This document shows, in pieces, positions 27,221-54,378 of a stretch of 64,000 bases of DNA. A program made the position numbers and the translations under genes. The stretch comes from Aliivibrio sifiae (GTDB lineage Bacteria > Pseudomonadota > Gammaproteobacteria > Enterobacterales > Vibrionaceae): positions 1,311,569 through 1,375,568 of the forward strand of contig NZ_MSCP01000002.1 in the NCBI RefSeq assembly GCF_002954715.1, written 5' to 3'. Under the pieces are notes generated by a model. The model was given only the letters and a program-made list of their open reading frames with translations, had not been told where the DNA came from and did not search any database. Within the stretch, counting starts at the first letter, position 1, and every line of letters begins with the position of its first letter.

Positions 27221-28090
27221 ATGAAAAAAATTATTTTATCTTCTATGGTCTTTTTCTTTTATGGCGTACATGTTGGCCAAGATAAACCATTTCCTTACAG
27301 TGAAATAAAGGCGATGACATCGTTCTTTAAAGGTGTATTAGCTCCTCAGCCTGAGATTGGTAGCTTTGGCAGAGTGATATCTATGCCTGACAGCGTTCAG
27401 GTTGAGTGTCCTACACAGAATGAAAAATTAGGTGTAATTGTTGCCTTTGGTCAAAGTAACTCTGCCAATCAGGCTGAGTACAAATATACGAGCCAAGAAC
27501 TAGAGGGGGTAGTTAATTTTTATAATGGTAGGTGTTATCAAGCGAAATCCCCTTTATTGGGAGCTACAGGTTTAAGAGGTGAGTGGATATCAAAAACAGC
27601 CAAGAATCTTATTGATAATGACGTATACGATAAGGTTGTTGTGATGTCTAGTGGTATAGGAGGTACTCCGATTATTCGTTGGGCCAGAGATAATGACTTG
27701 AATCAAATGTTTTTAAATGAACTGCAAAAAATATCAGAAAAATATGTAGTTACAGATATGATTTGGCATCAAGGCGAAACAGATAAAAAGTATACACCTA
27801 CTGAAGCATACGAAAATATGTTCTTGAGTATGAAGGAAACTATCACAGAGGCTGGAGTTAATGCTCCTATCTTTATATCTATTGCTAGCGTTTGTGGTTC
27901 GAGCTTCTCTTATCCAAATAAAGTAACTATGGCTCAAGAAAATCTGGCGAAAAAAAATAATATTTACCTAGGGGTTAATACCGATAAGTTGATACCTCCT
28001 GATATGAGGTTCGATGGCTGTCACTTCGATAAAGCAGGACAAGAGATTGCGGCTAGAGTTATGGCTGAATCAATAAAAAATAGCAAATAG
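27221..28090 (+). CDS. Sialate O-acetylesterase-like SGNH hydrolase
   Basis: The 289-residue protein has a signal-like N-terminus. A catalytic domain of the sialate O-acetylesterase (SASA, DUF303) type shows block I VAFGQSNSANQ (Ser nucleophile), the block around SSGIGGTPIIRW, IWHQGETDKKYTP, and the terminal DGCHFDKAGQEIAA with the catalytic Asp/His. It should remove acyl groups from acetylated sugars outside the cytoplasm (family knowledge). It lies within mobile-element debris, and its stop codon falls inside a heptamer tandem repeat, so the C-terminal few residues (KNSK) come from the repeat. The gene looks otherwise intact. Confidence 0.75.
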   Translation: MKKIILSSMVFFFYGVHVGQDKPFPYSEIKAMTSFFKGVLAPQPEIGSFGRVISMPDSVQVECPTQNEKLGVIVAFGQSNSANQAEYKYTSQELEGVVNFYNGRCYQAKSPLLGATGLRGEWISKTAKNLIDNDVYDKVVVMSSGIGGTPIIRWARDNDLNQMFLNELQKISEKYVVTDMIWHQGETDKKYTPTEAYENMFLSMKETITEAGVNAPIFISIASVCGSSFSYPNKVTMAQENLAKKNNIYLGVNTDKLIPPDMRFDGCHFDKAGQEIAARVMAESIKNSK

Positions 28091-28140
28091 CAAATAGCAA
28101 ATAGCAAATAGCAAATAGCAAATAGCAAATAGCAAATAGC
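28078..28140 (+). repeat. Nine-copy tandem heptamer AAATAGC
   Basis: Nine perfect copies of AAATAGC occupy 28078-28140. The acetylesterase-like stop codon (TAG at 28088) is supplied by the repeat, so the last codons of that gene are repeat-derived. Because 7 is not a multiple of 3, each added unit changes frame, but every frame meets TAG within three units. Copy number may differ between strains by slippage (inference). Confidence 0.97.
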
Positions 28141-28175
28141 ATAATCTTCGTTATCTGTACTAACAACTAGAAAAC

Positions 28176-28530: not shown

Positions 28531-28558
28531 TCAACTTTCAACTTTCAACTTTCAACTT
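28531..28558 (+). repeat. Four-copy tandem heptamer TCAACTT
   Basis: Four perfect copies of TCAACTT (28531-28558), followed by a broken fifth (TCAAAAC). It lies at the 3' end of the recombinase relic. It has the same unit length as the AAATAGC array 390 bases away, but the sequences differ. Confidence 0.95.
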
Positions 28559-28560
28559 TC

Positions 28561-29071
28561 AAAACACTATAAACAGTCGTTCGACTACAACTCAACTCTT
28601 TACTGATCGCGTTCTTATTCATCCCCTCACTCGCAAGCTCTTTAATGCGATTATGAAGCGCTTATTATACCTTCTGCTTTAACGTGTTCTCAGCCCTCAT
28701 TACAGCGCTGTAAGACGCGTTTTCTTTCCATTTCTGCGAAAGCTGGAATAGTGGTATAAATCACTCGCCTACATCAGAATTAATATCGACATTACCGAGA
28801 TCGTGAAATATCAAACCAACACCTTTCGCTGATAAGGTATCGGCAATTTGAAGAGCATTAATGGTATTACGAGCCAAGCACTCCACTTTCATGACATGAA
28901 TAATATCCCCTTCACGAGAGAAATCGATCATCGCATTTAATTGGCGCGCTCTGAATCTTTGCCACTGGCATTTTCTTGGAAGATTTTTTCACAGCCTAAT
29001 CGTTCAAGTTGTTCAACCTGCAAATCGAGAAATTGGTCGCTTGAGCTAACTCTTGCATAACCAATAAGCAT
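28561..29071 (-). pseudogene. Serine recombinase (resolvase/invertase) relic
   Basis: On the minus strand an ATG at 29071 opens [13 protein letters not shown], the resolvase N-terminus with the catalytic Ser. It continues to [14 protein letters not shown], then shifts frame. Later pieces read AMIDFSREGDIIHVMK, DTLSAKGVGLIFHDLG, a stop, then PAFAEMERKRVLQRC, and finally an HTH-like NRIKELASEGMNKNAISKELS. The catalytic-arginine region reads VECLARN rather than the usual DRLGRN-like form. Several frame breaks and stops show it is dead. The family is the Tn3 resolvase/Hin invertase type. Bounds are approximate. Confidence 0.75.
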
Positions 29072-44174: not shown

Positions 44175-44774
44175 TTATACATGTATTTTTGCATACGTCA
44201 TAACGAGATCGGCAACCGTCTCAGCATTCAGTTTCTTCATTAAACTAGAGCGATGTACTTCTACCGTACGAACCGCAACAAATAACTCTGCTGCAATCTG
44301 TTGGTTTCGTTTTCCAGCTACAATTAAATGCAAAATTTCAGATTCTCTTTCGGTCAATGAACCCAGCACTTTTTTACGGTTTTGTTTATCATAAAGACTT
44401 AAAGAGGCCGTCATTGCTTTATGAATAGCTAACGCTAATTGCTCACCATCGACGGGTTTTTGAAAGAAATCCACCGCCCCTAACTTTAGAGCATCCACCG
44501 CCATTGGTACGTCACCGTGTCCGGTTAAAAATATCACAGATAATGGACTTTGCTGTTGATTAAGTACTGTATGCACCTCTTGGCCACGAAGGATAGGCAT
44601 ACGGCTATCAAGCACCACACAACCGGGCTTCATTACATCCACATTATCAATAAAATCTTGTCCATCGTTAAAAGAAACAACAGTAAAATCATAACCTTCC
44701 AACATGAAGGTTAATGAATCACGTACAGATTCATCGTCATCGACAACATACACTGGTACTACTAATTCAGACAT
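44175..44774 (-). CDS. ttrR: TtrR-like response regulator (LuxR type)
   Basis: The 199-residue protein has a receiver domain with Asp56 (VVLDSRMP) and a LuxR-type HTH (about 135-195; LTERESEILHLIVAGKRNQQ). It is cotranscribed with the ttrS-like kinase 18 bases upstream and divergent from the reductase genes. In Salmonella TtrR activates ttrBCA in response to tetrathionate. The same role is likely here, with a shared operator-like element in the spacer. Confidence 0.88.
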   Translation of the reverse strand: MSELVVPVYVVDDDESVRDSLTFMLEGYDFTVVSFNDGQDFIDNVDVMKPGCVVLDSRMPILRGQEVHTVLNQQQSPLSVIFLTGHGDVPMAVDALKLGAVDFFQKPVDGEQLALAIHKAMTASLSLYDKQNRKKVLGSLTERESEILHLIVAGKRNQQIAAELFVAVRTVEVHRSSLMKKLNAETVADLVMTYAKIHV

Positions 44775-44792: not shown

Positions 44793-46619
44793 TTATTTAG
44801 TAATGAGTGTACTTAATCGTGGCAATATTACTGTGACACAGCACCCTTGTGGTGATGCGGGTTCCAATAAAAATTGCCCTTGATGCGCTTCAATCACATC
44901 ACGACAAATCGCAAGTCCTAATCCTAATCCATTTTCTTTCGTGGTAAAGAACGCTTTAGATAACAGTTCGCTATCGTCCTCAAACCCTATTCCATTATCT
45001 TGTATTGTGAGCACGATATTAGAATCATCACATTGTGTTTCAATATGAATGTGATGGGTAACACTGCCTTTTTGTTCTTCGCGTTGCATACAAGCATCAG
45101 CGGCATTATTAAGTACATTGAGCAGTACTTGTTGTATGCCTACCCCATCTCCCAATAAAAGACACGGTTTAACTGCATTGTTTCGCGTCAGGTGAATTTT
45201 TTTCTTTTGAAAGTCGTACTCTAATAACGTTAAGGTATCGCTAATGATGCCATTAATATCACATTCCGCTTTTTCTATTTGGCGCTTATTAATCAGTTTA
45301 CGTAACCGCTGCACAATACTATCAGCGCGAATGACTTGCTGCTCTATTTTCTCTAAAACGGGAATTAATTCTTGCGCTGGCAGTCCTTTTTTAAGGCGTA
45401 ACAATCCCCCTTGGCTATAATTACGGATTGCAGCTAATGGCTGATTAATTTCATGCGCCAAACTGCTTCCTAGCTCTCCAACAATACTCACTCGTTGAGC
45501 GTGTTCTAGCATCGAATTTTTCTCTTTTAAACTATGAAGCGTATTTTCTAGCTCACGTTTACTGCGACTGAAACGATATTCCAGCAAAAAATGATAACCA
45601 TTAAGTGAAATAACTAAGATAAATAGCATCCATCCCCATTGTTGATTCTGCTTTAGCCACGATACAGCTTCTTGCCACCACGGCTTTTGCAATGGGTGCA
45701 TATCCAAACCTTGATACAATTTATCAACTGAGAGCTGGCTAATGGGTGATGTCCAACCCAACGAATTTGCAGCAAGCGCTGCAGACTCATGACTGGGTAA
45801 TGATAACAAAGCTCTGGTGATCGGCTTGGCTAATCGTTCATCTCCTTTCCCTGTTTTAGCAAATGACCAGTTTGGGTAGAGCGGCGTTGAGGTGGCGCAA
45901 GAAAAATCGTCTGGTGCGATATTATTGATCACTCGATAGTTAGAGGCGTCAATCAATCCCTCTTTGTTCATTCTCTCAATTAAACACACAGGTACAATCG
46001 CACCATCAATATGTTTATCACGTAATTGATAAATTAAAGCATCTAACGGGAACCCTAAAAATTGCGTATCTGAAAAGTACGTTGATTGACTTAATCCGAG
46101 TTTATTAATCTCAAATCGTAACGTCAGATACCCCCCAAAGGCATTTTCATCGACCGCTGCTAAGGAGTGTCCACTTAATGATTCGATGGTCGAAAATGAT
46201 GAATCGTTACGGACCACTAACGCCGAGCCAATCGCATGGGTGGTTCCATTTTTACGAGTGGTGTTCGCACTGCTTAATGTCGCAAGCCAAGAGAGTGGGT
46301 ATTGTCTGCCTAATCGTACCGCTTGACCGGGGTTGGTGATAACAAAATCAACGGTTTGATTCTCGACCACTTGTTCCATTTGTTGAAGCGTAAAAGGATG
46401 CAAAACAAAATGAGTATTAGGAACGCGTTCACTCAGCCAATCCATCGTCGGTTGCCAACGATTTTGTGCTTCAGCCCCACCACGGGTAGCCAATACACCA
46501 ACATCAACATTAACGGTTTGCGCTTGAGCAAAGACCGCATGAGATAACAACAAACACACACACCCTACCCACAGCGATAGACTGATTTTACGACCCTGTA
46601 TTTGCCATCCATTGCTCAT
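44793..46619 (-). CDS. ttrS: TtrS-like tetrathionate sensor kinase
   Basis: The 608-residue membrane kinase has a signal peptide and a PhnD-like periplasmic binding domain (about 30-290; ending near TSPISQLSVD). A membrane segment follows near 330, then a coiled linker, HisKA (SSLAHEINQPLAAIRN) and HATPase with G box GLGLGLAICRDV. TtrS senses tetrathionate (known for Salmonella). The ATG at 46619 gives a proper signal peptide; the TTG at 46679 would add 20 residues that break it. It lies divergent from ttrB. Confidence 0.88.
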   Translation of the reverse strand: MSNGWQIQGRKISLSLWVGCVCLLLSHAVFAQAQTVNVDVGVLATRGGAEAQNRWQPTMDWLSERVPNTHFVLHPFTLQQMEQVVENQTVDFVITNPGQAVRLGRQYPLSWLATLSSANTTRKNGTTHAIGSALVVRNDSSFSTIESLSGHSLAAVDENAFGGYLTLRFEINKLGLSQSTYFSDTQFLGFPLDALIYQLRDKHIDGAIVPVCLIERMNKEGLIDASNYRVINNIAPDDFSCATSTPLYPNWSFAKTGKGDERLAKPITRALLSLPSHESAALAANSLGWTSPISQLSVDKLYQGLDMHPLQKPWWQEAVSWLKQNQQWGWMLFILVISLNGYHFLLEYRFSRSKRELENTLHSLKEKNSMLEHAQRVSIVGELGSSLAHEINQPLAAIRNYSQGGLLRLKKGLPAQELIPVLEKIEQQVIRADSIVQRLRKLINKRQIEKAECDINGIISDTLTLLEYDFQKKKIHLTRNNAVKPCLLLGDGVGIQQVLLNVLNNAADACMQREEQKGSVTHHIHIETQCDDSNIVLTIQDNGIGFEDDSELLSKAFFTTKENGLGLGLAICRDVIEAHQGQFLLEPASPQGCCVTVILPRLSTLITK

Positions 46620-46715
46620 TATCTTTTCGCTCTTATTTGAAATACTTGCCAAGAATAACAACTTCTGTTTTTTTCCCAACTCTTTTTCTTGTTTTAGATC
46701 AACTCACCTTACGCT

Positions 46716-46733
46716 ATGTGGAAAACCACAATA
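46716..46733. promoter_or_regulatory. 18-base operator candidate upstream of ttrB
   Basis: A core inverted repeat TGTGG-AAAA-CCACA (46717-46730) lies within an 18-base element that is identical at 51862-51879 before tsdB. It ends 76 bases before the ttrB ATG and about 97 bases from the ttrS start. TtrR is the obvious candidate to bind it (inference). Confidence 0.75.
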
Positions 46734-46809
46734 GGCGGCACTGACTTAATTCTTAATAATCCGTTCATATTATGAAATGCACTCTAACTCCTAACCAAAA
46801 AGGTGTTTT

Positions 46810-47586
46810 ATGGACAATACCAAACGTCGATTTCTCAGTCGTCTTGGCACCCTTACCGCAGGCGCTGCGATTATTCCTGTCGCTGGCGCAGGCACATTAT
46901 CAGCCAATACCATTATCCGTAATAATAACCAACCAGACCGCAAAGGCATGGTGGGTAAACGTTACGCGATGGTTGTTGATTTACGAAAATGTGTTGGCTG
47001 CCAAGCCTGTACCGTGGGTTGTTCCATCGAAAACCAAGCACCTATTGGGCAGTTTAGAACAACCGTAAAACAATACGAAGTCACGCTAGATAATGGCGAT
47101 ACTGAAGTTCAAAACGTCAAATCATTCATGTTACCGCGTTTGTGTAACCATTGTGAAAATCCCCCTTGCGTGAAAGTTTGCCCAGTTCAAGCGACCTTCC
47201 AACGTGAAGATGGCATTGTCATGGTGGATAACGAACGCTGCGTAGCCTGTGCTTATTGTGTTCAGGCTTGTCCTTACGATGCCCGCTTCATTAATGAAGA
47301 GACCTTAACCGCTGACAAATGCACCTTCTGTGCTCACCGCTTAGAAAAAGGCTTATTGCCCGCTTGTGTCGAAACCTGTGTAGGTGGCGCGCGTGTGATT
47401 GGTGATTTGAATGATCCAAGCAGTGAAATTGTGCGCTTAATGGCAGAAAACCAAGCGGACATCAAAGTACTAAAACCAGAAGAAGAAACACAACCGCATG
47501 TGTTTTATATCGGCATGGACGAGCGCTTTACGTCTCACATTGAGGGCAAAGCCGCGATTTATGATCCAAAAGGAGAAAACGCATGA
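46810..47586 (+). CDS. ttrB: TtrB tetrathionate reductase iron-sulfur subunit
   Basis: The 258-residue protein has a Tat signal (twin Arg at residues 6-7, then FLSRLGTL) and four ferredoxin-type cysteine groups, for example CVGCQACTVGC, CNHCENPPCVKVCP, CVACAYCVQACP and CTFCAHRLEKGLLPACVETC. It carries electrons between TtrC and TtrA at the periplasmic side of the membrane. An AAGGTG ribosome site precedes the ATG at 46810. It overlaps ttrC by four bases. Confidence 0.94.
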   Translation: MDNTKRRFLSRLGTLTAGAAIIPVAGAGTLSANTIIRNNNQPDRKGMVGKRYAMVVDLRKCVGCQACTVGCSIENQAPIGQFRTTVKQYEVTLDNGDTEVQNVKSFMLPRLCNHCENPPCVKVCPVQATFQREDGIVMVDNERCVACAYCVQACPYDARFINEETLTADKCTFCAHRLEKGLLPACVETCVGGARVIGDLNDPSSEIVRLMAENQADIKVLKPEEETQPHVFYIGMDERFTSHIEGKAAIYDPKGENA

Positions 47587-48653
47587 ACATCACTGAAGTT
47601 TTAGTTCAACCACAAGCAACCGCGTGGCTTCCGTGGGCCGTGCAATATTTCTTATACATTGGCTCTGCTTACGCTGCTGCTATTTTGTTTTTACTGAGCT
47701 TGGTATTTCAACAATTTACAAGCCATAAAATGCGCTCTGCATTGGTATTAACCCTCGCGATTGGCGCAATTGTTGGCCCGTTAGCGTTAACCGGTGATCT
47801 GCATCAACCAGGTCGTGCTTGGCATTTCTTCTTCCATCTTACGCCTTGGTCTTGGATGTCTCTTGGATCGTTATTCTTGCCTCTTTTCTCAGGGCTAGCA
47901 GTACTCACAGCATGGCTATATTTACGTGATGACATTGCCCAATTGAAAAACAGTACCAATCCAATCGCAAAATTAGTGGGCTTACTCACTCTGGGTGATT
48001 GGAAAATAAGTGCCGTACAAATGAAAATCATCGCGGCGATCACAGTTTTATCAGGGTTAAGCATCGCGCTTTATACGGGCGCTGAAATTGCGATTGTAGA
48101 AAGCCGTCCATTATGGAATCAAGCCGCTTCTCCTCTGCTTTGGTTTATCACCGCTTTCTTAGGTGCGATTGGTTTCTCTGCAATTTTATTGTGGCTGTTC
48201 CCATCAGAAAATAACGACGTCATGAAGAGCGGGGATTTATCTCTCATCAAACGCGTGATGACATTAAGCTCACTGCTCGCTTTTATTCTTATGCCGCTTT
48301 GGGCTTCAAATAATCCGTACTTTTCATTGTACGAAAACAGCGATTGGATCACTCGGTTAAGCATTGTCAGCATGGGTTTTGTCCTTTGTTTTATTGTGGC
48401 TCAAAACATCAAAAAACTGCATCGACTGAGTTTCGCTGTGATTGCATTAACGACCTTGTGTGCGAGCTTTTATTTACGTTGGGTTACCATGATGGATGTA
48501 CAAACCATACCAAAATTTGATGTGGGTGCTTACCCATACGAACTGCCAATGGGCGGCTCTGGGCTGCTGGGCATTATTGGTATGTTTGGCTTATGGATGG
48601 CGTTAGCGCTTGCTGCATCTGAACTCATCAACACAACAAAATCAACCAAGTAA
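47583..48653 (+). CDS. ttrC: TtrC tetrathionate reductase membrane subunit (NrfD type)
   Basis: The 356-residue polytopic membrane protein has about nine hydrophobic helices and the NrfD-like elements GDLHQPGRAWHFF and TPWSWMSLGSL. It hosts the quinol site and hands electrons to TtrB. It is coupled to ttrB by overlap and to ttrA by a ten-base gap. In Salmonella it is the quinol-oxidising membrane anchor. Confidence 0.93.
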   Translation: MNITEVLVQPQATAWLPWAVQYFLYIGSAYAAAILFLLSLVFQQFTSHKMRSALVLTLAIGAIVGPLALTGDLHQPGRAWHFFFHLTPWSWMSLGSLFLPLFSGLAVLTAWLYLRDDIAQLKNSTNPIAKLVGLLTLGDWKISAVQMKIIAAITVLSGLSIALYTGAEIAIVESRPLWNQAASPLLWFITAFLGAIGFSAILLWLFPSENNDVMKSGDLSLIKRVMTLSSLLAFILMPLWASNNPYFSLYENSDWITRLSIVSMGFVLCFIVAQNIKKLHRLSFAVIALTTLCASFYLRWVTMMDVQTIPKFDVGAYPYELPMGGSGLLGIIGMFGLWMALALAASELINTTKSTK

Positions 48654-48663
48654 GGAATTGAAC

Positions 48664-51600
48664 ATGGATAACAAACGTCGTCAGTTTTTAAAATCAGGTC
48701 TTGCTGTTGGTGGTGTTGGTGCTTTTGCGGCAGGCTATGCAACAACAGCAAAACACATGGCTCATGGGGTGATTGAAGGCACCGCAGGTAAGAAAACCAA
48801 CCACATACATCATGGTAATTCATTAGAACCAGAATACACGGTGACAGAAGAAGGGAAATTTATTCCTAATCCAAAGCAACGTGTTGCCCCTTCAATGTGT
48901 TTTGGTTGTTGGACATTATGTGGCCTACGCGTTCGTATTGATAATGACAGCGATAAGATCTTACGTATCTCTGGCAATCCATATCATCCGTTATCACACG
49001 AGCAACAAATCCCATTTAATACGTCAGTAAAAGACGCGTACATTGGCTTAGCCGGAGAAACAGGCATTGCAGGTCGCTCTACGGCGTGTGCCCGTGGTAA
49101 TGGCATGATGGAAATTCGCAACAGTCCGTATCGTATTACTCAACCATTAAAACGTGTCGGTAAACGTGGTGAAGGAAAATGGGTGCCCATCAGTTATGAA
49201 CAATTACTTGAAGAAGTGATTGAAGGAGGCGATTTATTTGGTGAAGGTCATGTTGAAGGATTACGCGCTATTCGAGATCTAAAAACACCTGTTGATCCTA
49301 ATAACCCAGAATACGGCCCAAAGGCCAATCAACTGTTAGTCACCAACGCGGGTAACGAAGGTCGTGATGACATTTTAAAACGCTTTGCTTTCAACAGTTA
49401 TGGTACACGTAATTTTGGTCATCATGGTTCATATTGTGGTTATGCTTTCCGCGCAGGCTCTGGCGCATTAATGAATGATCTCGACAAGTTCGCTCACGTA
49501 AAACCGGATTTAGAACACACCGAATTTGCAATCTTTATTGGTATGTCGCCAGCCCAAGCCGGTAATCCATTTAAACGTCAAGCTCGCCAATTAGCCGCTG
49601 CTCGTACTCGTGGTAATTTTGAATACACGATTATCACACCAAGCTTACCGGCTGGTTCATCAAGCCTAGCGGCGGGTGATAATAACCGCTGGATGCCAAT
49701 TAACTCAGGCACGGATTCAGCTTTAGTGCTAGGTATGATCCAATGGATCATCACTAACGAGCGTTACAATCACACCTTCTTAGCGCAACCAAGTGCGAAT
49801 GCAATGAAAAGCGCAGGCACAGCCCACTGGTGTAATGCCACTCACCTTGTTATTAGCGATGAATCTCATCCTAGAAATGGCGCGTTCTTACGTGCGTCTG
49901 AAATGGGATTAACGTATGAAGGCGAAGCGCTGTCTGACAGTGATCCTTATGTGATTATTGATGCAGAAACGAAGCAGTTAGCCATCAATACACAGAACCA
50001 ACCAGCGATGTTATTTGTTAGCCAACAAGTAGAAACCATCACTGGCACCGTCACCGTTAAGTCATCATTACAACGCTTAAAGGAAGAAGCGTTTAAATAT
50101 GACTTGGCGTTCTACAGTAAGCAATGTGCGATCTCAGAAGATGAAATCATTGCATTAGCCACCAAATTTACCAGTCATGGAACTAAAGCTGTCGTCGATA
50201 CCCACGGAGGTAACATGCACAGTAATGGCTTTTATAACGCTTACACCATTTTGATGTTGAATGCCCTTATCGGTAACATCAATTTAAAAGGTGGAACGAT
50301 GGCAAAAGCAGGCGGTTATCCTACGTCGGCGGAAGGTCCACGTTATAACTTTGCAAAATTCTCAGGTAAGGTGAAACCACAAGGCGTTTTCTTATCTCGC
50401 AGTAAATTCCCATACCAGAAAACCAGTGAGTACAAACGTAAAATAGCGGCAGGGCAATCGCCTTACCCAACTCGCTCACCTTGGTACCCTATTTCTTCTC
50501 CGTTACTGACAGAGCATTTGTCAGCGGCGATTGATGGTTATCCATACCGTGCAAAAGCATGGATAAACCACATGGCAAACCCGCTTTATGGCGTTCCTGG
50601 ATTAGATAATTTATTAAGCGATAAAATCAAAGATCCAAAACAATTAGGATTGATTGTCTCTGTTGATGCGTTCATTAACGAAACCACCGCCCTGTCTGAT
50701 TACTTAGTACCCGATACCGTTACCTATGAAAGCTGGGGAATGGCGACACCTTGGCATGGCGTACCAACAAAAGCCGTCACAACTCGTTGGCCTATTGTTG
50801 AACCATTAACAGAAAAAACAACTGATGGTCGCGCTATTAATCTTGAAAACTTCGTTATTGATATTGCCAAACAAATGGATCTTGGTGGTTTTGGGAATAA
50901 CGCGATTTCCGATGCTAACGGCAACTGGCATGGCATTCATTGTGCGGAAGATTTCTATTTACGCTCAGCGGCTAACCTTGCTTATGTGGCTAATGGTGTA
51001 CCAAGTGCCACCGCAGAAGACATGGTGTTGTCAGGATTAGATCGACTAATTCCAGACATGCAACGAGTTTTATCGCCAGAAGAATTAGGCAAAGTAGCCT
51101 ATATTTTTGCTCGCGGAGGGCGTTTTGAAGACGCAACAGAAGCGTACAAAAACGATGAAATGAAATACAAATGGAAAAAACCATTAGCGATTTGGAACGA
51201 GAGACTCGGCACCTCTCGCAACACCATGACAGGTGAGCAATACAGTGGCTGCCCTACGTGGTATCCACAAAAGCTCGCTGATGGCACACCGTTAAGTGAT
51301 AAATACCCAAAATCAGAATGGCCATTTACGTTAACTAACTTTAAATCCAACATTCACAGCGCGGTGTCTAACTTATCTCCTCGCTTGAATTCAATTAAAG
51401 GCGTAAACCCTGTTTATATTCATCCGACAGACGCACAAAAACTCGGCGTCAAAACTGGCGATGTATTCACAATAACCACGCCAAGCAGCTCAACCAAAGC
51501 ATTAGCGATGTTAGTTGATGGTATTCAACGTGGCACACTAGGCTTTGAACATGGCTTTGGTCATAAAGAGTTAGGTGAACGTGCCCATTGGATTGGCTAT

Positions 51601-51756
51601 ACTCAACAACCAGTAAAAATGAAATCAAATGATGGCGTGAATATCAATGACATTGGCTTAATAGACCCAACTCGTAAAGGTAAAGGCGTTTTACTTGATT
51701 GGGTGGTTGGTGCAGCAGCAAGACAAGCGCTACCTGCCAAAATTAGCCTAAGTTAA
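48664..51756 (+). CDS. ttrA: TtrA tetrathionate reductase catalytic subunit
   Basis: The protein has 1030 residues, with a Tat signal (RRQFLKSG, twin Arg at 5-6) and an N-terminal iron-sulfur site CFGCWTLCGLRVRI. The molybdopterin guanine dinucleotide enzyme core follows, with a C-terminal molydopterin-dinucleotide binding domain (VYIHPTDAQKLGVKTGDVF). The length is close to Salmonella TtrA (about 1020). It reduces tetrathionate to thiosulfate in the periplasm as an anaerobic electron acceptor. The ATG at 48664 (MDNKRRQF) has AAGGA upstream; an in-frame ATG at 48610 would overlap ttrC and break the Tat signal. Confidence 0.95.
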   Translation: MDNKRRQFLKSGLAVGGVGAFAAGYATTAKHMAHGVIEGTAGKKTNHIHHGNSLEPEYTVTEEGKFIPNPKQRVAPSMCFGCWTLCGLRVRIDNDSDKILRISGNPYHPLSHEQQIPFNTSVKDAYIGLAGETGIAGRSTACARGNGMMEIRNSPYRITQPLKRVGKRGEGKWVPISYEQLLEEVIEGGDLFGEGHVEGLRAIRDLKTPVDPNNPEYGPKANQLLVTNAGNEGRDDILKRFAFNSYGTRNFGHHGSYCGYAFRAGSGALMNDLDKFAHVKPDLEHTEFAIFIGMSPAQAGNPFKRQARQLAAARTRGNFEYTIITPSLPAGSSSLAAGDNNRWMPINSGTDSALVLGMIQWIITNERYNHTFLAQPSANAMKSAGTAHWCNATHLVISDESHPRNGAFLRASEMGLTYEGEALSDSDPYVIIDAETKQLAINTQNQPAMLFVSQQVETITGTVTVKSSLQRLKEEAFKYDLAFYSKQCAISEDEIIALATKFTSHGTKAVVDTHGGNMHSNGFYNAYTILMLNALIGNINLKGGTMAKAGGYPTSAEGPRYNFAKFSGKVKPQGVFLSRSKFPYQKTSEYKRKIAAGQSPYPTRSPWYPISSPLLTEHLSAAIDGYPYRAKAWINHMANPLYGVPGLDNLLSDKIKDPKQLGLIVSVDAFINETTALSDYLVPDTVTYESWGMATPWHGVPTKAVTTRWPIVEPLTEKTTDGRAINLENFVIDIAKQMDLGGFGNNAISDANGNWHGIHCAEDFYLRSAANLAYVANGVPSATAEDMVLSGLDRLIPDMQRVLSPEELGKVAYIFARGGRFEDATEAYKNDEMKYKWKKPLAIWNERLGTSRNTMTGEQYSGCPTWYPQKLADGTPLSDKYPKSEWPFTLTNFKSNIHSAVSNLSPRLNSIKGVNPVYIHPTDAQKLGVKTGDVFTITTPSSSTKALAMLVDGIQRGTLGFEHGFGHKELGERAHWIGYTQQPVKMKSNDGVNINDIGLIDPTRKGKGVLLDWVVGAAARQALPAKISLS

Positions 51757-51861
51757 CGCTAGCTACTTTATTCATATTATAAACGGGTGTAAATGACAGC
51801 ACTCGTTTTGATACATTTCATCTCACAAACACTCCCATTGATATCACACACTTGATAATAA

Positions 51862-51879
51862 ATGTGGAAAACCACAATA
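51862..51879. promoter_or_regulatory. 18-base operator candidate upstream of tsdB-like gene
   Basis: Identical to the element at 46716-46733, with the core inverted repeat TGTGG-AAAA-CCACA at 51863-51876. It ends 74 bases before the tsdB-like ATG. The same relative placement as before ttrB suggests coordinate control of both transcripts. Confidence 0.75.
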
Positions 51880-51953
51880 CCCAAGTCTATAAATACTATT
51901 GATAATAAAAAGAAAAGATCCCTAAAAAATAAAGTAATTTTTGTGGAGCAAAT

Positions 51954-52580
51954 ATGTCATTACCCAAAATAATTCAAAGCAGCTTAGGGTTAGGAGTGTT
52001 ACTTCTATCTACCAGTTCAGCCTTTGCAGCACCTGCGCCAATCCCACCCGCAGCAACCGTGTGTACCAGTTGTCATATGCCTACTGGAATGGGATTACCT
52101 AACATGGCACCGATGATTGCAGGTAAAAACGCCGACTATCTAACGCATCAAATCGATTTATTCATTGCAGGTGAACGCAACGATCCTCTAATGACACCAA
52201 TGGCAAGCCTCATTGCGGATCCACAAAAGAAAGCTGAAGCCATTAACTATTTCGCCTCTTTATCTGCTCCTGAAATTAAAAATCCAGAACACCGCGGTGA
52301 CCATGTCATTATTACCGGCCCTGCTCGTAAACTCGTTTACCAAGGCGATTGGAATCGCAATATTCCAGCCTGCTCTACTTGTCACGGTGCCAGTGGCATT
52401 GGGGTACAAGATTTTCCTCGCTTAGCAAATCAACATCCTGATTACCTTGAAGAACAATTAAAAGCGTGGAAAAACAAAACCCGATCAGGTGATCACAATG
52501 ACGTGATGGGCAGTATCGCACGACAACTCACAGATACTGAGATCTCGCAATTATCGCACTATTTTGCCACTGTGAAATAA
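51954..52580 (+). CDS. tsdB: TsdB-like dihaem cytochrome c (c4 type)
   Basis: The 208-residue periplasmic cytochrome has a signal peptide (cleavage near AFAAP) and two CxxCH haem sites at 37-41 (CTSCH) and 140-144 (CSTCH), with candidate axial Met residues between. The two-domain c4 layout fits TsdB, the electron partner of TsdA. TGGAG precedes the ATG. It is followed after ten bases by the tsdA-like gene. The name depends on that neighbour. Confidence 0.75.
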   Translation: MSLPKIIQSSLGLGVLLLSTSSAFAAPAPIPPAATVCTSCHMPTGMGLPNMAPMIAGKNADYLTHQIDLFIAGERNDPLMTPMASLIADPQKKAEAINYFASLSAPEIKNPEHRGDHVIITGPARKLVYQGDWNRNIPACSTCHGASGIGVQDFPRLANQHPDYLEEQLKAWKNKTRSGDHNDVMGSIARQLTDTEISQLSHYFATVK

Positions 52581-52590
52581 GGAACATACG

Positions 52591-53625
52591 ATGAATAAAA
52601 CCATAATCACTCTGGCAGCCGCAACTTTATTTTCACACTCAGTATTAGCAACGACAGAGTTACCAGACAAACAAGCAGAGCTGCCAGCTCATCCCAAAAC
52701 AGAAAAGTCGGATCACTTAGTTCCACGTGATTTCAGTACAATTCCGAACACCCCTTTTGGTGACAAAGTTAAACAAGGTTATTCTCTATTTGTAAACACG
52801 CAAACCTTGCAAGGCAAATACGTTAATAACCAACAGAATTGCGTAAACTGCCATATGCAAGCGGGCATGAAAGCGGATTCAGCGCCACTTTGGGGAGCCT
52901 TTATGGCCTACCCCGCTTATCGTTCAAAAAATGACAAAGTAAACACGTATGCAGAGCGTATTCAAGGGTGTTTCACTTATTCAATGAACGGAACTCCGCC
53001 ACCTCAAGACTCTCCTGAATTAGTCGCATTAAGTGCCTATTCTTATTGGTTAGCTATGGGGGGGTTATTAGACAAATACAATATGCAGAACACGCCAATC
53101 CCTGAATTGTCAGATGCTGCCGTTCAATTAGGAGGCAACGATGAGTCGTTTATCCTACCTATTGAGATGATGAAAGATTTACCCGCAGGTAAACGTGGAT
53201 CTCTCGCTGGACGTAGTTTTCCTAAGTTAGATAAACCAGAGCAAGCGCCTTCTATTGAGCGTGGCGAGATCGTTTACAACACTACGTGTGCAAGCTGTCA
53301 TGGTGCCAATGGCGAAGGCATTAGAGATCACGGCGTGCAATCTTTCCCACCATTATGGGGCAAGGACTCATTTAACTGGGGGGCAGGCATGCACCGTGTA
53401 AATACTGCCGCCTTCTTTATTTATGAAAACATGCCACTTGGGAAAAGTATTCAGATCACCAAACAAGAAGCATGGGATGTTGCAGCCTTCATGAACAGCC
53501 ATGAGCGCCCTCAAGATCCCCGCTTTAAAGGTGATTTAAAAGCAAACCAAGAAAAATACCATAACCACCAAGGCTACTATGGTAAAACCGTAAACGGAAA
53601 AGTATTAGGTGAACATTCATATTAA
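52591..53625 (+). CDS. tsdA: TsdA-like thiosulfate dehydrogenase / tetrathionate reductase
   Basis: The 344-residue dihaem cytochrome has haem sites CVNCH (84-88) and CASCH (233-237). Between them is the Cys127 of RIQGCFTYSMNG, which corresponds to the distinctive axial Cys ligand of haem 1 in TsdA enzymes; a Met in ENMPLGKS is a candidate ligand of haem 2. TsdA interconverts thiosulfate and tetrathionate, and some members favour reduction. A signal peptide is present. It is transcribed with tsdB and ends at a strong terminator. Confidence 0.82.
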   Translation: MNKTIITLAAATLFSHSVLATTELPDKQAELPAHPKTEKSDHLVPRDFSTIPNTPFGDKVKQGYSLFVNTQTLQGKYVNNQQNCVNCHMQAGMKADSAPLWGAFMAYPAYRSKNDKVNTYAERIQGCFTYSMNGTPPPQDSPELVALSAYSYWLAMGGLLDKYNMQNTPIPELSDAAVQLGGNDESFILPIEMMKDLPAGKRGSLAGRSFPKLDKPEQAPSIERGEIVYNTTCASCHGANGEGIRDHGVQSFPPLWGKDSFNWGAGMHRVNTAAFFIYENMPLGKSIQITKQEAWDVAAFMNSHERPQDPRFKGDLKANQEKYHNHQGYYGKTVNGKVLGEHSY

Positions 53626-53802: not shown

Positions 53803-54378
53803 ATGAAATTTAGCGTTAACACATTAGTTATTTCTACTCTATTTGCTTCTTTTTCGGCTTTTTCTGCCCCTGTTGAATTTCAGAAGATCCCAGAGATCAT
53901 GACGAAATTTGAATCTGCTCAGCTGTTTGTAAAAAGCTCACCAACCTTAGGCCGATTACCAAAAACCGCTGAACTAGGCAAACAGTTTCCTACTTATGTG
54001 TCTGATGGCAAAGGCGGTTATCACCTAGAAACAAGCAATACGATGATCAAAGAGGTTGTTGTCGCTAGAATGCCAACCGCGGTTGTCGATGATGTCTATA
54101 ACGAATGGTTAGTACCTCAAGACGTATGGAAAGTCACTTATGGTGTTCTTCCTACCTCAACAGAGTTCGCATCCTTTAAACGAATCAAAAGCATTAAAGC
54201 CATCAAAATAGATGACGAAATGTTAACACTGATGGGCAGTGACGATGGTAAAACTGCGACCATTAAAGTGAGCTGGGACGATAAAGGAATGACAGTCTAC
54301 AAAGACGGTTACCTTGCTGATTATGAATACGGCATTGCTCCAGAAGAAATGAAAGCAAACTACGAATTGGCAAAATAA
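53803..54378 (+). CDS. Uncharacterised periplasmic protein
   Basis: The 191-residue protein has a signal peptide (cleavage near AFSA-PV), followed by a polar globular body with no recognised motif (EFQKIPEIMTKFESAQ, the WKVTYGVLPTSTEF block and a terminal EEMKANYELAK). The ATG at 53803 (MKFSVN) gives the signal peptide; a TTG at 53785 is in frame but adds an awkward lead. It is flanked by terminators on both sides, so probably expressed on its own. I cannot name a family. Confidence 0.6.
   Translation: MKFSVNTLVISTLFASFSAFSAPVEFQKIPEIMTKFESAQLFVKSSPTLGRLPKTAELGKQFPTYVSDGKGGYHLETSNTMIKEVVVARMPTAVVDDVYNEWLVPQDVWKVTYGVLPTSTEFASFKRIKSIKAIKIDDEMLTLMGSDDGKTATIKVSWDDKGMTVYKDGYLADYEYGIAPEEMKANYELAK

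Follow-up and report, generated by a model that had tools for sequence, protein, structure and literature searches.

In the 64,000-nucleotide stretch of the Aliivibrio sifiae genome analysed here (the window), two identical 18-mers, ATGTGGAAAACCACAATA, precede the operons ttrBCA and tsdBA, and on the combined evidence they are almost certainly operators of the response regulator TtrR. An earlier note on this DNA had named TtrR as the likely regulator of both arms. The idea is supported, being backed by direct experiments in Vibrio parahaemolyticus and by a TtrR homologue lying near the extended element in 104 of 104 cases, and it was already known, since the V. parahaemolyticus ttrR box was published in 2024 (Zhong et al. 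2024, PMC11293645). The finding thus restates a published mechanism, with Aliivibrio as a new host genus. The added value lies in the promoter geometry and in an FNR-like site at ttrB only.

Table 1. Features of the ttr-tsd cluster (window coordinates)
Feature	Position	Strand	Description
ttrR	44175..44774	-	FixJ/NarL-type response regulator, REC + LuxR-type HTH; best NCBIfam match TtrR, 212 bits
ttrS	44793..46679	-	Sensor kinase, phosphonate-binding-type sensor domain; best NCBIfam match TtrS, 458 bits
FNR-like site TTGTTTTAGATCAA	46689..46702	+	Centre lies 28 bp before box 1; agrees with TTGAT-N4-ATCAA in 9 of 10 bases
ttrR box 1	46716..46733 (core 46717-46730)	+	Matches published ttrR box; predicted operator of ttrBCA
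-10-like hexamer AATAAT	46755..46760	+	24 bp after core 1
ttrB	46810..47586	+	Iron-sulfur subunit
ttrC	47583..48653	+	NrfD-type membrane subunit
ttrA	48664..51756	+	Molybdopterin catalytic subunit
ttrR box 2	51862..51879 (core 51863-51876)	+	Matches published ttrR box; predicted operator of tsdBA
-10-like hexamer GATAAT	51901..51906	+	24 bp after core 2
tsdB	51954..52580	+	Dihaem cytochrome c; matches TsdB half of TsdBA fusion PDB 5lo9, E 3e-23
tsdA	52591..53625	+	Thiosulfate dehydrogenase; PDB 5lo9, E 9e-72; TsdA 4wq7, E 3e-38

The closest named relatives of the window's genome are Aliivibrio sp. 1S175 and A. sifiae. In the cluster the minus strand carries ttrR and ttrS, and the plus strand then carries ttrBCA and tsdBA (Table 1). 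All three ttrBCA subunits could be assigned, and TsdB and TsdA both match 5lo9, a solved chain that holds the two halves in a single protein and that we take to be the Marichromatium TsdBA fusion. The haem-ligand Cys is retained in TsdA in the motif RIQGCF. An ATG start is also present for ttrS at 46619. The scores of both regulatory proteins are under the NCBIfam cut-offs, 290 bits for TtrR (NF040749, a Salmonella-type equivalog) and 750 bits for TtrS, and the window TtrR is for this reason not filed under NF040749. These cut-offs appear to be tuned to Salmonella-type proteins; that of NF040749 was reached in one of the 296 genomes of the order (L196). In a tree of regulators the window TtrR clusters with the ttr-linked ones. 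Past a terminator-like hairpin 3' of tsdA lies a small gene (53803-54378) that matches no family and probably encodes a signal peptide; it is retained where tsdBA has been lost.

We read the 18-mer at both positions where it had been noticed, and the exact core TGTGGNNNNCCACA occurs at only these two places in the window, in agreement with the earlier note, in which no other copy had been noticed. Both boxes fit the inverted repeat GTGG-N4-CCAC. The pair is no chance repeat: 60 first-order Markov copies of the window contained no repeated 18-mer, and the window itself held one besides ATGTGGAAAACCACAATA, leaving aside two 7-bp tandem arrays. That further exact direct repeat, TTCCATAAATTGAACTTC, is located at 1655 and 7098, and the short arrays, with units AAATAGC and TCAACTT, at 28078-28141 and 28531-28562.

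The whole 4.74 Mb genome has four copies of the core, the two window sites included, while the extended 18-mer with an A/T spacer is found at the window sites only. The third core copy (C1:596391-596404; L001 1501-1514) was rejected as an extra target; it follows purF and sits within an intrinsic terminator, AAAAAGCCTGTGGAAAACCACAGGCTTTTTTG, between convergent genes, where the identical 14-base palindrome has another use as the terminator stem. The fourth copy (C1:2169468) and a match with one mismatch (C1:271390) were rejected as well, both lying within coding sequence. A genome scan allowing two mismatches gave 77 matches compared to 113 with a reversed control, so no more members of the regulon can be claimed.

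Across 297 Vibrionaceae genomes, the extended element ATGTGGWWWWCCACARTA gave 104 matches in 69 genomes. It was not scattered over unrelated genes: all 104 matches were within 8.3 kb of an independently found TtrR homologue, a nearness that a randomly chosen position would show with a probability of about 0.3% if the genome were 5 Mb long. The search for homologues scored ten candidates per genome, so the tally of paralogues is a lower bound and some may be missed. At the loci inspected the boxes precede ttrB and tsdB, with two exceptions in which tsdBA is lost or broken. A box with no or one mismatch precedes ttrB in every ttr locus examined, including those of other families of the order, as well as in one genome outside the order; the core was observed before ttrB in Shewanella-like, presumed Pasteurellaceae and Salmonella-type loci, the families being presumed from size and gene content. 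The GG/CC of the box is invariant in all ttr loci. When 369 genomes of the class were scanned for the exact box together with an upstream ATCAA, two had it: the window genome and one other, again at a ttrB promoter.

Both exceptions are Aliivibrio. In Aliivibrio sp. EL58 (L036 11430-11547; the same locus as L114) tsdBA is cleanly missing, and an orphan ttrR box 2 with its -10 element stands before the downstream terminator-like hairpin, followed by the small gene that comes after tsdA in the window. Repeats similar to AATAATAAA are present on both sides of the missing stretch. In the other strain (L035 11069-13743) a DDE transposase gene splits tsdB, and tsdA is truncated. With one loss and one disruption, tsdBA is the less stable of the regulon's two halves.

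With respect to promoter architecture, the conserved distance is that from the box to the -10 element. The earlier note had placed each box about 75-80 bases before the next start codon; the distances hold (76 bp to the ttrB ATG at 46810 and 74 bp to the tsdB ATG at 51954), but not as a conserved feature, as they vary from 44 to 202 bp among loci. A hexamer ending in AAT at one fixed offset, its first base being the 25th after the core, accounted for 78% of the ttrB weight and 82% of the tsdB weight, compared to 0-29% elsewhere. We observed that this core-to-hexamer spacing is kept across relatives while the intervening sequence has diverged, ttrB and tsdB sharing little there. No strong -35 element was found near either box, as expected of an activator-dependent promoter. 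Judging from the 24 bp gap, the box is predicted to lie directly upstream of the -35 region; its centre, some 43 bp ahead of where transcription is predicted to start, together with the poor -35, fits an activator that touches the polymerase at the -35 region.

A paralogue of TtrR was also considered as the regulator acting at the box. Many Vibrionaceae have a ThsR-like regulator that shares roughly 45-64% identity with TtrR, sometimes with a TtrR elsewhere in the genome. At one such locus (L037 4435-15268) the ThsR-like TtrSR paralogue is divergent from an operon for a rhodanese, an FAD/Fe-S oxidoreductase, CCG-domain and VTT-domain proteins and an ABC-type solute-binding protein; similar loci are L038-L041, L060-L069 and L086-L096. 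The ThsR-like paralogues adjoin nearly the same box, with T for A at position -1 (before TGTGG) in nearly all loci. The N4 spacer alone failed to discriminate the two types of box, AAAA being present in both. In the regulator tree the ttr-linked and the other regulators part with two label changes, the dividing branches being moderately supported. The likeness of the boxes, along with the 3-fold rise of ttrBCA caused by the paralogous system of V. parahaemolyticus (PMC11293645), would favour a ThsR-like regulator that shares the box with TtrR or is its main user. However, at E < 1e-30 only one TtrR-type regulator is found in the window's genome, and in V. parahaemolyticus, according to the same paper, TtrRS is absolutely required; we give this possibility very little weight.

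Binding of CRP-cAMP to the TGTG and CACA arms is scarcely credible. The arms are there, and the related Shewanella phsA promoter is affected by CRP (PMC5408782), but the arms of a CRP site, TGTGA-N6-TCACA, leave 8 bases between TGTG and CACA where the box has 6, and the inner position of the box is G/C instead of A/T, invariantly so in the ttr loci. A CRP site would moreover be scattered genome-wide, whereas the element was found only beside TtrR. A role for the palindrome at the RNA level, as a terminator or hairpin like the copy after purF, has a negligible chance in spite of the terminator-like look of box 2 on the minus strand, for neither window copy has a T tract on the coding strand, the spacing from the boxes to the -10 element is fixed, and box 1 lies within a divergent intergenic region. 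Both readings were rejected on arm spacing, distribution, the missing T tract and the fixed -10 distance.

Taking the analysis as a whole, we consider it highly probable that a dimer of phosphorylated TtrR binds each 18-mer and works in the following way. TtrS would sense tetrathionate and phosphorylate TtrR; TtrR~P would bind TGTGG-AAAA-CCACA, abutting or overlapping the weak -35 region, and recruit RNA polymerase to the -10 element 24 bp past the core. Box 1 would drive ttrBCA, hence tetrathionate reduction, and is probably also the operator of the divergent ttrSR. Box 2 would drive tsdBA, whose products would oxidise thiosulfate to tetrathionate and so supply more inducer. TtrR binding, dependence on the box, tetrathionate sensing and the functions of the enzymes have been shown in V. 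parahaemolyticus (PMC11293645), where ttrRS is also autoregulated; we infer the same TtrR mechanism for this Aliivibrio, with start sites and any FNR role being predictions. A single two-component system tying tetrathionate reduction to thiosulfate oxidation is supported across the family and beyond.

The two promoters differ upstream of the box. The ttrB promoters examined comprised 62 distinct sequences, which form 32 clusters at 75% identity. All 62 had an FNR-like site with at most two mismatches upstream of the box, 60 of them at a centre distance of 28 bp and two at 30 bp, compared to about 5 of 62 after shuffling. Among 29 tsdB promoters such sites were no more frequent than by chance: two were found, at distances of 55 and 29, where about two were expected. 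The tsdB promoter of the window has no counterpart. Counting against FNR, the left half-site is TTGTT rather than TTGAT in most Vibrionaceae; three presumed Pasteurellaceae have the perfect TTGAT-N4-ATCAA. The window's genome encodes FNR, and the candidate site would sit at about -71 relative to the inferred start, from where FNR would probably boost ttrBCA anaerobically. The notion of one regulator for both arms therefore stands as far as the common TtrR box is concerned but does not extend to alike promoters: both arms share TtrR and, as the sequences suggest, an anaerobic input is probably confined to the reducing arm. The arms would then have the tetrathionate input in common and not the oxygen input. 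As far as we could find, this one-sided site at a fixed spacing appears to be new. It would explain simply how a cell can both produce and consume tetrathionate without necessarily running a futile cycle.

The promoter of the ThsR-like paralogue's operon has the same composite: of 23 such loci, 21 have the FNR-like site at the 28 bp distance. A tentative reading, which we lean slightly against, is that a composite promoter, with 28 bp from FNR-like site to box and 24 bp from box to -10, is kept at ttrB and at the paralogue's operon, that tsdBA has it without the FNR half, and that the circuit sorts by oxygen. If so, with oxygen present TtrR~P would make TsdBA and tetrathionate would build up; with oxygen absent TtrR~P and FNR would make TtrBCA and tetrathionate would be respired. 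Our reserve comes from V. parahaemolyticus, where ttrBCA is induced aerobically and the authors think the ttr promoter free of FNR (PMC11293645). The conserved site at ttrB is in tension with that view, and an oxygen-sorting circuit would contradict it.

Among known systems the closest is ttrRS-ttrBCA-tsdBA of V. parahaemolyticus, which has the same gene order, adjoining ttrRS, both target operons and the inverted repeat GTGG-N4-CCAC, named there the ttrR box; TtrR was reported to bind it and to activate ttrBCA and tsdBA by gel shift, promoter and box deletion, lux fusions and qRT-PCR (PMC11293645). That species belongs to another genus, and the fixed -10 spacing and the ttrB-only FNR-like site come from the present analysis, not from the available text of that paper. 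The Salmonella-type locus L196, the sole one in the order to pass the TtrR cut-off, has the same box with an FNR-like site 28 bp upstream; unlike in the window cluster, tsdBA was not found there. FNR dependence of ttr is a finding from Salmonella, not from Vibrionaceae: in Salmonella the ttrB promoter needs both TtrSR and FNR (as cited in PMC5408782). FNR is cited in other work as mattering for ttr in Shewanella baltica.

The ThsR operator of Shewanella halifaxensis PphsA, TATGTGGTTTACCACAAT (Daeffler et al. 2017, PMC5408782), agrees with the window 18-mer in 15 of 18 bases; the FixJ-like regulator family is common to the two, and the box was needed for the response. PphsA differs in its spacer (TTTA versus AAAA), in having two copies before one operon and in that thiosulfate sensing drives phsA. 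The search for a TtrR operator in that sensor work was inconclusive, and the sites described here supply a precise operator and promoter spacing where it had been left unsettled.
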